From Verrucomicrobiia bacterium (GTDB lineage: Bacteria > Verrucomicrobiota > Verrucomicrobiia > Verrucomicrobiales > DEV007), in NCBI GenBank assembly GCA_030430255.1, contig JAUIGD010000011.1, positions 1-40,377 of the forward strand: 40,377 nt of DNA, given 5' to 3'. Made by a program: the position numbers and the translations under genes. The notes beneath the pieces were generated by a model. The model saw nothing but the letters and a program-made list of their open reading frames with translations, had not been told where the DNA came from and ran no database searches. Shown piece by piece: positions 14,356 through 39,685 of the stretch (position 1 is the first letter of the stretch; each line of letters starts with the position of its first letter).

Positions 14356-14421
14356 AGGCGGCGGACCATTGGCCCGCGTGGGGCGCACCGGCGGCAGGCG
14401 GGGACGCGCGCCTCCCCGGGG

Positions 14422-14473
14422 GCCGGAGGCGGGACGCCCCCGGCACGGACATCGGCGGGACGCCGATGCCACG
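14422..14473 (-). repeat. dispersed double-hairpin repeat, copy A
   Basis: Reverse-strand copy of a repeat of about 52 bases also found at 31690-31742 and 31943-31995. Read on the minus strand it holds two adjacent hairpins. The first is CATCGGCG, loop TCC, CGCCGATG. In the second, the arms CCGGGGGCG and CGCCTCCGG flank a TCC loop, pairing nine bases with one G-T wobble. It fills the gap between dnaX and lipB. There is no T-tract, so it does not look like a classical terminator; it could act as a REP-type element or an RNA-end protector. Confidence 0.8.
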
Positions 14474-25824: not shown

Positions 25825-26340
25825 TCACTCGGTGGCGTCGTCCATCCCGACGAGCTGGCTCGCGGCGCGCACGCGGGTCTCGAACTGCTCGATCTCGGCG
25901 GGGATCGCCAGCACGAGCAACAGGCGGGTGACCATGGAGACGGTGGCCAGCGAGGTGACCGTCTCCAACACGCCCTGACGGTCCATCCACAGCGCGATCA
26001 GGCCGGGGATGATGAAGCCGATCACCTGGTAGTCGCCGCCGAGCCCGGCGACGGCATCGCCGCCGAGCGTCCGGAAGGCGACGCCGATGACGTAGCCCGA
26101 GAGGATCGCCAGGGCGGTGCGGCGCTTGCCGTAGACGATCACGATCGACGACACGAGGCGCACGACGAGGTACGTCAACAGCGCCACCAGCAGGGTGAGC
26201 AGGATGCTCACCGGCTGGAACACGAACAGGGCGAAGTAGCCAGGCACCACGAGCCCCCCCGCCTTGAAGCCGAAGAACTCGGCGAACAGCAGGCTGACCA
26301 CGAGGCCGAGGCCGATAGAGACGGTGAGCAGGTCGAGCAT
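25825..26340 (-). CDS. pgsC: poly-gamma-glutamate biosynthesis membrane protein PgsC/CapC
   Basis: Small integral membrane subunit of the poly-gamma-glutamate synthase, 171 residues, about the usual length for PgsC. The N-terminus MLDLLTVSIGLGLVVSLLFA and the following GFKAGGLVVPGYFALFVFQP are characteristic. Several membrane segments follow, with a charged C-terminal tail. It works with the ligase PgsB. It lies 34 bases downstream of pgsB and 41 bases upstream of pgsW, in an operon on the minus strand. Confidence 0.88.
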   Translation of the reverse strand: MLDLLTVSIGLGLVVSLLFAEFFGFKAGGLVVPGYFALFVFQPVSILLTLLVALLTYLVVRLVSSIVIVYGKRRTALAILSGYVIGVAFRTLGGDAVAGLGGDYQVIGFIIPGLIALWMDRQGVLETVTSLATVSMVTRLLLVLAIPAEIEQFETRVRAASQLVGMDDATE

Positions 26341-30000: not shown

Positions 30001-30099
30001 AGTCGCCGCCCCGCAGATTTGCCCGGACGAAGCCCGCCGGACAACCCAACTGCACCAACGTCCATCCACCCACCCCACGACCCGCCAACCCGCCAGACC

Positions 30100-31491
30100 A
30101 TGGAGCTCGTCACCGAAGAGAACCTCGAACCGAAGTCCCTCAACCTGTTCCTCAAGGCGCAGAACGCCATCGAACTGAAGAACTTCGACTACGCCATCAG
30201 CCTCCTCCAGAGCATCCTCAAAGAGGTGCCCGGCTTCGTCAAAGGGCGCGAGCTGCTGCGCGCCACCCAAGGGGCCCGGGTCGGCGGCCAGAAGAAGAAG
30301 GGCGGTCTGACCCTCGGCGGCGGCATGTCCAAAGTGAAGGCCAAGCTGAAGAAGGATCCCGAGGGAGCCTTGGTGGACATCGAGGAGAAGCTGAACGGCG
30401 ACCCCTACAACATCGAGGCCAACACGCTGTTCTACGACGCCTGGATGGCCCTCAAGCAGCCGCAGATGGCCACCTTCGGGCTCGAGACCATCCGCCAGGG
30501 CCACCCGACCAACACCAAGAACCTGCACAAGCTCGGCGACCACTACATCTCCATCGGCGACTACCCCGCCGCCGCCAAGATCTTCGACCAGATCACCGAG
30601 CACGACCCCTCGGACGGCACCGCGCGCAAGAAGGCCAAAGACGCCTCCGCCATGGGCACCATGAAGAGCACCGGCATCGACCGTAAGGGCGCCGGGCTCA
30701 GGGACCTGCTCAAGAACCAGGACGAGACCGCCGCCCTCGAAGCCGCGTCCCGCAAGGGCGCCACCCGCGAACAGATGGAGGCGCGCCTGGCCGAGCTCGG
30801 CGAACAATACGCCGCCGACCCGCAGAACCTCCACGTCGTCAAAGACATCGCCAGCCTCTACGAGCGGCTCGAGGACTGGGAGAACTGCGCCTCGTATTTC
30901 GAGTACGCCTTCTCCATCAGCAACGCCGACGCCACCCTCCGGCGCAAGGCCGAGGAGGCGCGCGACAAGCAGCGCGTCCAGAAGATCAAAGACCTGGAAG
31001 CCCAGATCGAGGGCGCCGGCGACGATGCCGACGACCTCCGCGCCCAGCTCGAGGAGCTCAAAGCCGCATCCCTCGAGCAGCAGATCGCCGAGGCCAGAGA
31101 GCGCGTCGAGAGCAACCCGACCGACCCCGAACTGCGCTTCGATCTCGGCTCCCACCTCTACGCTGCGGGCCAGCAGCGCGACGCCATCCCGCACCTGCAG
31201 AAGGCCAAGAACAACCCCCACATCCGCATCCGCGCCATGCTGATGCTCGGGCGCTGCTACGAGGCGATGAAGATGCACGACCTCGCCATCAAGACGCTCA
31301 GCGAGGCCAACGGGGAGCTGCACGCCATGGACGGCGTCAAGAAAGAGGTGCTCTACACCCTCGGCATCATCCACGATGCCGTCGGCGACAAGGAGAAGTC
31401 GCTCGAGGCGCTCAAGGAAATCTACAACGCGGACTACGACTACCGCGACGTCGCCGCCCGCGTCGAGGGCTCCTACGGCGACGACGACTAG
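30100..31491 (+). CDS. tetratricopeptide-repeat protein
   Basis: 463 residues, helical throughout and without a signal peptide, so presumably cytoplasmic. TPR-like pairs are visible at the start (LFLKAQNAIELKNFDYAISL), in the middle (KLGDHYISIGDYPAAAKIFD; LYERLEDWENCASYFEYAFS) and near the end (LMLGRCYEAMKMHDLAIKTL). A basic Gly/Lys-rich linker (about 65-85) and a charged coiled-coil-like region (about 275-335) separate them. I associate this N-terminus with conserved Verrucomicrobiota proteins, from memory only. It is probably a scaffold for protein contacts. Its TAG stop codon forms part of the palindromic element that follows. Confidence 0.8.
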   Translation: MELVTEENLEPKSLNLFLKAQNAIELKNFDYAISLLQSILKEVPGFVKGRELLRATQGARVGGQKKKGGLTLGGGMSKVKAKLKKDPEGALVDIEEKLNGDPYNIEANTLFYDAWMALKQPQMATFGLETIRQGHPTNTKNLHKLGDHYISIGDYPAAAKIFDQITEHDPSDGTARKKAKDASAMGTMKSTGIDRKGAGLRDLLKNQDETAALEAASRKGATREQMEARLAELGEQYAADPQNLHVVKDIASLYERLEDWENCASYFEYAFSISNADATLRRKAEEARDKQRVQKIKDLEAQIEGAGDDADDLRAQLEELKAASLEQQIAEARERVESNPTDPELRFDLGSHLYAAGQQRDAIPHLQKAKNNPHIRIRAMLMLGRCYEAMKMHDLAIKTLSEANGELHAMDGVKKEVLYTLGIIHDAVGDKEKSLEALKEIYNADYDYRDVAARVEGSYGDDD

Positions 31492-31689: not shown

Positions 31690-31742
31690 CGTGGCATCGG
31701 CGTCCCGCCGATGTCCGTGCCGGGGGCGTCCCGCCCCCAGGC
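31690..31742 (+). repeat. dispersed double-hairpin repeat, copy B
   Basis: Two hairpins: CATCGGCG, loop TCC, CGCCGATG (31695-31713) and GGGGGCG, loop TCC, CGCCCCC (31722-31738), joined by TCCGTGCC. It is nearly identical to copy C at 31943-31995 and matches copy A on the opposite strand at 14422-14473. Confidence 0.85.
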
Positions 31743-31942
31743 CAGCCGGAGCGCGAGCATCTTGCTCGCCCCGCATGCCCTGAACAGCACCACCGCAATC
31801 CCAACCACCCCCAAGGGCAAACCAAACCCCCAAAGGCGAGCGAGACGCTCGCGCTCCGTGCCCCCAGCAGCGGCAACGAGGACATCTGCCCTCCAACGCG
31901 CCCACACCCCCCGGACGTCGCGCGCCCTCGCCCGCGCGCGCC

Positions 31943-31995
31943 CGTGGCATCGGCGTCCCGCCGATGTCTGTGCCGGGGGCGTCTCGCCCCCAGGC
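31943..31995 (+). repeat. dispersed double-hairpin repeat, copy C
   Basis: CATCGGCG, loop TCC, CGCCGATG (31948-31966), then GGGGGCG, loop TCT, CGCCCCC (31975-31991). It differs from copy B at two positions (one in the spacer, one in the second loop), so both stems are conserved. Confidence 0.85.
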
Positions 31996-32023
31996 TCCGT
32001 GTACGCGACCCCCGCCGCGGCAG

Positions 32024-39652: not shown

Positions 39653-39685
39653 GCGAAGGCGGGAGGCCGTGCCTCCCGCCTTCGC
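39653..39685 (+). other. perfect 15-bp hairpin between rtcB and rtcA
   Basis: GCGAAGGCGGGAGGC (39653-39667), loop CGT, GCCTCCCGCCTTCGC (39671-39685). It starts 10 bases after the rtcB stop. There is no T-tract, so it may protect the rtcB mRNA end, attenuate rtcA, or be a repeat-derived element. Confidence 0.75.

Follow-up and report, generated by a model that had tools for sequence, protein, structure and literature searches.

The short hairpins crowded between positions 31695 and 31991 of this DNA are REP (repetitive extragenic palindrome) sequences, members of two dispersed families. By the window we mean the whole stretch of DNA analysed, 40,377 nucleotides long. Taken whole, the best explanation, and one we hold to be very probable, is that they are GT[AG]G REPs or near to that type and represent two small mobile elements whose enzymes are RAYTs (REP-associated tyrosine transposases), the RAYT of one of the two being an in-frame insert in the gene of a conserved enzyme. 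The hairpins themselves are an already known sort of repeat, the GT[AG]G REPs, to which they add a new member. The in-frame RAYTs are, as far as the literature searched reaches, undescribed.

Hairpins in the gap between convergent genes

The preliminary description had reported six TCY-loop hairpins with a common core, one of them on the minus strand, in which the loop stays constant and the stems change. Position and sequence bear this out for all six. Each is a perfect hairpin, each lies where that description had placed it, and the constant loop on a changing stem holds throughout. What had been missed was the arrangement. Four of the six fall into a 72-base direct repeat that is present twice, its copies lying 253 bases from each other and being 92% identical. 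The remaining two, with the GCGAGC stems, make up an inverted pair (31747-31770 and 31835-31858) that is 92% complementary and has 64 bases between the halves. Also missed was a GTRG tag at the stem foot. The layout is that of one inverted pair of the shorter repeat (repeat B) enclosed by two direct copies of the longer one (repeat A), and the window holds a third copy of repeat A some way off.

31691..31743, plus strand: repeat A, copy 1 (putative extent, from conservation across 90 genome copies)
31691-31694, plus strand: GTGG tag of copy 1
31695-31713, plus strand: hairpin 1 of copy 1, CATCGGCG-TCC-CGCCGATG
31722-31738, plus strand: hairpin 2 of copy 1, GGGGGCG-TCC-CGCCCCC, followed by the conserved end
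31747..31770, plus strand: repeat B, plus-strand half of the inverted pair, GGAGC and GCGAGCA-TCT-TGCTCGC (hairpin 31753-31769)
31835..31858, minus strand: repeat B, minus-strand half of the pair, GGAGC and GCGAGCG-TCT-CGCTCGC (hairpin 31836-31852)
31944..31996, plus strand: repeat A, copy 2 (GTGG tag 31944-31947)
31948-31966, plus strand: hairpin 1 of copy 2, CATCGGCG-TCC-CGCCGATG
31975-31991, plus strand: hairpin 2 of copy 2, GGGGGCG-TCT-CGCCCCC
14420..14472, minus strand: third copy of repeat A in the window (tag 14469-14472, hairpin 1 14450-14468; far end putative, from other copies)
30019..31491, plus strand: upstream open reading frame, 490 aa as listed; the repeats begin past its stop codon
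32024..34936, minus strand: 970-aa open reading frame converging on the repeats from the other side

The third copy sits between two plus-strand open reading frames.

Such hairpins are far commoner than base composition would give. Stems of at least 7 bp around a three-base loop number 25 in the window, against a mean of 8.3 and a maximum of 15 in 30 dinucleotide shuffles; eight of them carry a TCY/RGA loop (shuffled mean 0.67, maximum 3). A sample of the same genome chosen without regard to repeats (137,057 bases on 20 contigs, 40 shuffles) has the TCY/RGA loop in 6 of its 27 hairpins, where shuffling gives a mean of 1.1 and a maximum of 4, and the core GCRTCYYGC in five (mean 0.2, maximum 2). 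The total of 27 is within the shuffled range (mean 20.7, maximum 28), so the excess outside the window is specific to the TCY loop and the core. In 20 loci picked for holding the repeat, a biased set, the loop is GGA/TCC in 52 of 146 hairpins.

An eighth TCY hairpin of the window, GGTGAGCA-TCC-TGCTCACC at 26194-26212 on the minus strand, has no GTRG in the six bases before it and is probably chance or a remnant. At 39653-39685 there is a perfect 15-bp stem with a three-base CGT loop, unlike either repeat.

Two families of dispersed repeats

The hairpins had been thought unlike a simple repeat. The genome says otherwise, for they belong to two dispersed families of 103 and 20 copies. Repeat A consists of the GTGG tag, the hairpin CATCGGCG-TCY-CGCCGATG and then a variable second hairpin. 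The source genome (6.63 Mb) has 103 copies with a TCC or TCT loop, a count that carries no evidence on the tag because the search pattern itself contains GTGG. The exact 23-mer of tag and first hairpin occurs 90 times there, and 73 other genomes of the family yielded one copy of repeat A in total. Alignment of the 90 copies shows conservation from the base preceding GTGG to about 30 bases past the first hairpin, second hairpin included; outside this span the flanks are random-looking sequence. Repeat A has the marks of a GT[AG]G REP, namely the tag at the stem foot, a high number of dispersed copies and the same repeat flanking a RAYT. Repeat B is GGAGC followed by GCGAGCR-TCY-YGCTCGC, in 20 copies in the source genome. 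Its loop-closing pair is G-C in 8 of the 20 and A-T in 12, and never mismatched although the pattern allowed a mismatch. Its tag is GGAG, which places B outside the GT[AG]G definition and leaves A within it. A reading of the hairpins as CGTC-tagged REPs was discarded, as the CGTC of the core is stem and loop rather than an unpaired end.

The second hairpin of repeat A is where the stems vary, and across the 90 copies the variable pairs change together. Pair (8,24) is Watson-Crick in 88 of 90 (shuffled mean 57.8, maximum 68) and pair (10,22) in 63, with G-T in another 21 (shuffled Watson-Crick 29.2, maximum 43). The outermost pair (7,25), at 70 of 90 against 69.6, is at the shuffled level, the four pairs closest to the loop are nearly invariant, and a perfect stem of at least 5 bp is present in 60 of 90 copies at the settings used. 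Because the copies are related, these paired changes may reflect a few subfamilies. At (10,22) the TCY strand shows G-T in 21 of 90 copies and A-C in at least three, an excess that hints at the TCY strand being the one that folds and that could come from one subfamily.

One might suppose that such a fold serves mainly at the RNA level, the hairpins having been selected to end transcription or to stabilise mRNA 3' ends where two genes converge. They do lie between two convergent open reading frames, and both the paired changes and the preponderance of G-T over A-C fit a folded TCY-sense strand. We nevertheless judge an RNA role quite unlikely. Between 31400 and 32100 we found no terminator-like site with a T run (shuffled mean 0.3), and we rejected the reading of the hairpins as intrinsic terminators since no GC hairpin is followed by a T run there. 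An Rfam search of the whole window gave no match. Hairpins of this kind also flank RAYT genes, which often lie within the open frames of conserved enzymes, and an RNA role would lead one to expect conserved positions beside orthologues, against which the exact repeat is nearly absent from the 73 other genomes of the family. To our knowledge, moreover, termination needs neither a fixed loop nor a GTRG tag.

Copies also keep company. On one contig of the source genome (C667:9201-9858) four minus-strand copies of repeat A stand in tandem at a spacing of 205-215 bases, and their near flanks are the same. Each of the two repeats goes with a RAYT of its own, and copies of A are often found no more than a few hundred bases from copies of B (contigs C43, C80, C430, C447, C474, C491, C555 and C598), as though one repeat favoured the other as a target.

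RAYT genes of the source genome

A search of the source genome for the Y1_Tnp domain gave 12 matches, and two of the genes are bracketed by the repeats of the window. One (L052, contig C590) has repeat A on both sides in inverted orientation; the other (L050, contig C494) has repeat B on both sides, again inverted. By family model, and hence from sequence, both are assigned to the REP-associated tyrosine transposases, which are HUH/Y1 nucleases. The NCBIfam model NF047646 is the top transposase model for each of twelve RAYTs scored. Its cut-off of 80 bits is exceeded by L050 (89.4), L065 (81.6) and L157 (80.4); below it lie L052 (79.8), L140 (79.1), L104 (77.0), L171 (76.4), L115 (74.4), L098 (72.8), L169 (70.0), L085 (68.2) and L051 (67.7). 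An identity of L052 as an IS200/IS605 TnpA was rejected on the IS200 model NF033573, where it scores 19.5 bits against a cut-off of 55 and where L050 and L051 have no listed match. A profile search with the L052 core returned 4er8 first (1.1e-09), a RAYT bound to a REP hairpin. The predicted structure of the RAYT core, about 208 aa with long helices ahead of the HUH motif, has a pLDDT of 89.9, and its best fold match is again 4er8 (E 3.1e-07), with a TM of only 0.49 and an rmsd of 6.2.

The third RAYT of the genome (L051, contig C627) lies inside metH and has no TCY hairpin at its junctions. The junction peptides, SRDAGATF and SKDACATL for example, resemble translated repeats; it is perhaps an old insert. 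Other genes were set aside as partners of the hairpins. L049 is IS200-like and lacks them. Eight more Y1_Tnp genes (L053-L060), with open frames of 363-419 aa (368 aa in L056), lack them too apart from one 5-bp stem at L054, and are apparently a separate family.

Loop and tag across RAYT loci

We assembled 113 RAYT loci: 30 from 288 genomes of the order (the source genome included), the best 80 of 486 relatives in named genomes, and three of the source genome's own. Six duplicates were dropped, leaving 107. In the order, a RAYT match at E <= 1e-20 was present in 154 of the 288 genomes. A hairpin with a three-base loop and a stem of at least 7 bp lies within 300 bases at 86 of the 107 loci and on both sides at 72 (raw counts). 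Among the 86 the loop class is TCY at 67, TGY at 5, GCY and TTY at 4 each, CCY and ACY at 2 each, and something else at 2.

The telling comparison is between hairpins that share a locus and differ in stem. At 59 loci such hairpins form 188 pairs, and the loop class agrees in 165 of them and disagrees in 23, where 5000 shuffles gave a mean agreement of 122.8 and a maximum of 146. (An earlier rule that mis-sorted GCY and CCY, since replaced, gave 160 of 188 against a mean of 122.4 and a maximum of 139 in 1000 shuffles.) The tag is one-sided. Of 226 TCY hairpins near RAYTs, 142 have GTRG at the foot of the stem, and on the opposite side it stands in 2 of 226; 84 of the 226 have no GTRG at the foot, and one of the 227 TCY hairpins, too close to an end, was left out.

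Could mutation alone have done this? Imperfect palindromes are known to mutate through template-switch repair, and template switching at replication could pair the stem changes with the loop fixed merely by ancestry, which the copies within one family do share, and with recognition having no part. Ancestry, however, poorly explains a loop class shared around one RAYT when other classes surround other RAYTs, and poorly explains a tag confined to one strand. We consider this account unlikely.

Recognition by the transposase fits these observations better. Two 'group 3' enzymes depend on tag and loop bases, tolerate exchange of most of the stem sequence and are harmed by mismatches (PMC8266576). 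At the level of sequence, perfect palindromes and loop concordance are seen here, and group 3 TnpAREP is a candidate placement. The catalytic equipment is in place: HVH and the catalytic Tyr are found in 70 of 70 RAYTs embedded in other genes and in 34 of 34 that stand alone, and in the 70 embedded RAYTs the tag-reading positions, named after PMC6006769 by spacing, are W in 70, Q in 55, D in 69, H in 66 and R in 69. HVH and the D-H..R stretch lie within the two search patterns behind 80 of the 113 loci and are partly guaranteed there; the catalytic Tyr lies outside the patterns. The preliminary description had proposed recognition through the loop by a protein or an RNA. Its protein half has gained a candidate, a RAYT flanked by the same hairpins, with a loop class shared between different stems beyond shuffles and with paired stem changes. 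Given the agreement of loop class at RAYT loci and the fit with the published group 3 biochemistry, loop recognition by a protein appears likely from our sequence analysis. It would not be universal, since E. coli TnpAREP, of group 2, is indifferent to loop sequence (PMC8266576).

The RAYT, we infer, would bind the single strand that bears GTRG and TCY. It would read the tag and the loop, require an intact stem and read little of the stem sequence, and then cut at a dinucleotide that the tag specifies (CC where the tag is GTGG), thereby copying or moving the repeat. A GTGG guide can select CC (PMC8266576). The dinucleotide before GTGG in the 90 copies of repeat A is CC in 40 and AC in 22, where CC has a frequency of 0.10 elsewhere, and the element ends in GCC. 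This would be as expected for cutting at CC with a GTGG guide, and we regard it as a lead; the CC flank is seen in the source genome only, and the GTAG-tagged hairpins of another locus (L062) are preceded by AA or GA. The six hairpins would then be two insertions of repeat A plus a single inverted repeat B pair that have collected where the two frames converge.

RAYTs within conserved enzymes

The RAYT flanked by repeat A, L052, forms one open frame with ispG, and the genome, which is 89% complete, has no IspG match other than the two ispG halves around it. L051 lies in frame within the only metH found in the genome. By BLAST and family models, 70 of the 107 RAYTs are embedded in frame, 34 stand alone and 3 (L105, L122 and L146) are unclear and left out of the embedded and stand-alone counts; 70 of 107 is not a prevalence, the set having been found mostly with embedded queries. 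The hosts of the 70 are as follows.

MetH 22; IspG 20; ValS 8 (L157 elsewhere in the enzyme); restriction-modification enzymes 6
LeuS 2; CarB 2; helicase 2; FabA-like 2
Sua5, AlaRS, GH38, UDG, radical SAM and TPR protein, one each

Thirty come from the source genome's own order; the others, all named records, are from Verrucomicrobiota (18), Planctomycetota (15), Armatimonadota (3), Pseudomonadota (2), Kiritimatiellota (1) and Hydrogenedentota (1). One locus of the own order (L063) matches a locus named Akkermansiaceae (L100) across the stretch of RAYT compared, which makes Verrucomicrobiales the probable order. In the search of the 288 genomes the nearest relatives lie mostly in frames of 840-1536 aa, with exceptions that include L079 (299 aa) and a frame of 313 aa in genome G036, and remoter relatives mostly in frames of about 200-370 aa, several also in frames above 800 aa.

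One might suspect accidents: the frame could be mere read-through of GC-rich DNA, or a chimera of the assembly, and the host gene could in truth be broken. Long chance frames do occur in GC-rich genomes, most of our sources are metagenome assemblies, the contig of L052 is only 6.1 kb, and by our own tally 16 of the 70 cases have host homology on one side only, often at contig ends. In the other 54 a single frame holds host-enzyme sequence to either side of the RAYT. Curated whole-protein cut-offs are passed despite the insert by LeuS (972.9 bits), ValS (1027.6), CarB (1629.5) and the MetH of a cultured carrier, Rubritalea marina DSM 17716 (1811.5, in a frame of 1528 aa); IspG with its insert passes TIGR00612 (466.8) and fails PRK02048 (582.7 of 886). 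Many genomes have inserts at the same sites, among them three that are single contigs (G123, G207 and G219). In IspG the inserts occupy two linkers of variable length, and the conserved blocks on either side are intact in a comparison of 8 inserted and 9 empty copies (row L174 left out). The RAYTs have a dN/dS of 0.06-0.14 in 8 of 11 pairs with computable dS, two of these with dS above 2. We therefore regard accident as very unlikely, and an embedded RAYT would be translated together with the host enzyme around it, in a linker or loop where the enzyme tolerates it. A predicted model of an IspG fusion has a mean pLDDT of 57.3; beyond the barrel and the RAYT its quality is low, so the linkers are not read from it, and the structures it matches best are those of IspG.

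Most embedded RAYTs lack an ATG of their own. Within the 45 codons ahead of the core, 17 of the 70 embedded RAYTs have an ATG, as against 25 of the 34 that stand alone (Fisher p 2e-6). In the same stretch 40 of the 70 have only GTG or TTG, which are possible starts, and 13 have no start codon; two of the 13 are truncated at a contig end. The ribosome-binding signal was uninformative: a start codon with a Shine-Dalgarno-like signal was found for 9 of the 70 embedded RAYTs and for 3 of the 34 stand-alone ones. No Hint (splicing) domain appeared among the Pfam matches of the fusion proteins scanned, where only Y1_Tnp lies between the host halves.

How did they get there? IspG is present in 276 of the 288 genomes of the order. 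Most IspG frames among the matches listed are, by our reading, about 590-660 aa and 15 are 841-1108 aa, so the insert is patchy. The lengths of MetH frames over the order, from below 500 to above 1600 aa, do not by themselves separate inserted from empty copies. A tree of the 107 RAYT rows groups them by host gene, with support below 80 on 47 of 104 inner branches. It needs one change each for IspG site 1, ValS and LeuS, three for MetH site 1 and ten for embedded versus alone; given those ten, embedding probably arose or was lost more than once, as far as a sequence tree can tell. Purely vertical descent of the inserts was rejected, as host and RAYT distances correlate only in part (Mantel r 0.31 for 18 IspG, 0.64 for 19 MetH and 0.51 for 6 ValS rows). 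In one pair (L065 and L102) the RAYTs share 97.9% nucleotide identity and the ispG flanks 92.8 and 89.2%, a hint from sequence that inserts may be exchanged between alleles; in the other five of the six pairs tried the RAYT was not clearly closer than the host flanks.

Known systems and a possible new lifestyle

The repeats have close published kin. REPs of the GTAG super-family carry GT[AG]G at the foot of stems of 6-9 bp with alternative paired residues; they have very short loops (many TY), high copy number and dimers, and lie in gaps between convergent or unidirectional genes (PMC3733652). The verrucomicrobial O. terrae has a mostly GTGG-tagged family with many intragenic REPs (PMC3733652). 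Ours are alike in foot tag, paired stem residues, short loop, copy number and a convergent-gene gap, and differ in that the exact repeat A is nearly confined to the source genome within its family. The enzymes, too, share with known RAYT/TnpAREP proteins the HUH motif NHVH, mostly WQ, a catalytic Tyr before NP and foot-tagged REPs, along with an own REP family per RAYT and, probably, the reading of loop and tag with a largely free stem that is published for group 3 (PMC8266576, PMC6006769). What sets the present RAYTs apart is the core of about 208 aa with its long helices ahead of the HUH motif, and that many of them have no ATG and continue in frame into a host enzyme. The occurrence of REPs within genes, and within RAYT genes too, has been described (PMC3733652, PMC6006769); PMC3733652 speaks of REPs within genes, whereas here whole RAYT genes lie within genes. 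The full-text literature searched, with subscription journals and bioRxiv outside its scope, holds no description of RAYTs within host genes, nor do the available excerpts of PMC3733652, PMC6006769, PMC8266576 and PMC2817692. A few unexpectedly long RAYT proteins were discarded as fusions or annotation errors in an earlier survey (PMC6006769), and with over-long members removed, embedding may have escaped notice.

The comparative support, drawn from several phyla, is for RAYTs that read the loop and for stems that may drift if they still pair. The flanks of a RAYT might thus allow its REP code to be predicted. Beyond this we offer, tentatively and at somewhat less than even chances, the idea of a gene-resident class of RAYT: translated as in-frame enzyme domains, with their own ATG mostly lost and catalysis under selection, they would spread between same-site alleles, intein-like but without splicing, and seed loop-recognised REPs. 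The host gene would protect the transposase, because a frameshift or stop in the RAYT would also kill the host enzyme. Inteins sit in frame in conserved enzymes, recur at the same sites, are patchy among relatives and have a DNA-cutting domain. Embedded RAYTs resemble them in all four respects and differ in the splicing domain, of which none was seen here. IStrons are likewise IS-type mobile DNA rendered harmless to the host gene; they are removed by RNA splicing (PMC4227781), whereas the embedded RAYT stays open and in frame. Rickettsia palindromic elements are palindromic repeats inserted into protein-coding genes, but have a CGTC tag (RPE-4, RPE-6) and no known transposase (PMC3733652), where here the transposase gene itself is in host genes. 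Embedded RAYTs would be a new transposase lifestyle, within a conserved enzyme and with no splicing. If they move between alleles, they would be a homing system on single-strand DNA chemistry; if they do not, a new kind of domestication.

One hairpin turned up far from home. Upstream of a stand-alone RAYT of Planctomycetota Bin_90R (L095, JAJVIO010000058.1) lies exactly the first hairpin of the window, GTGG included, through either transfer or convergence.
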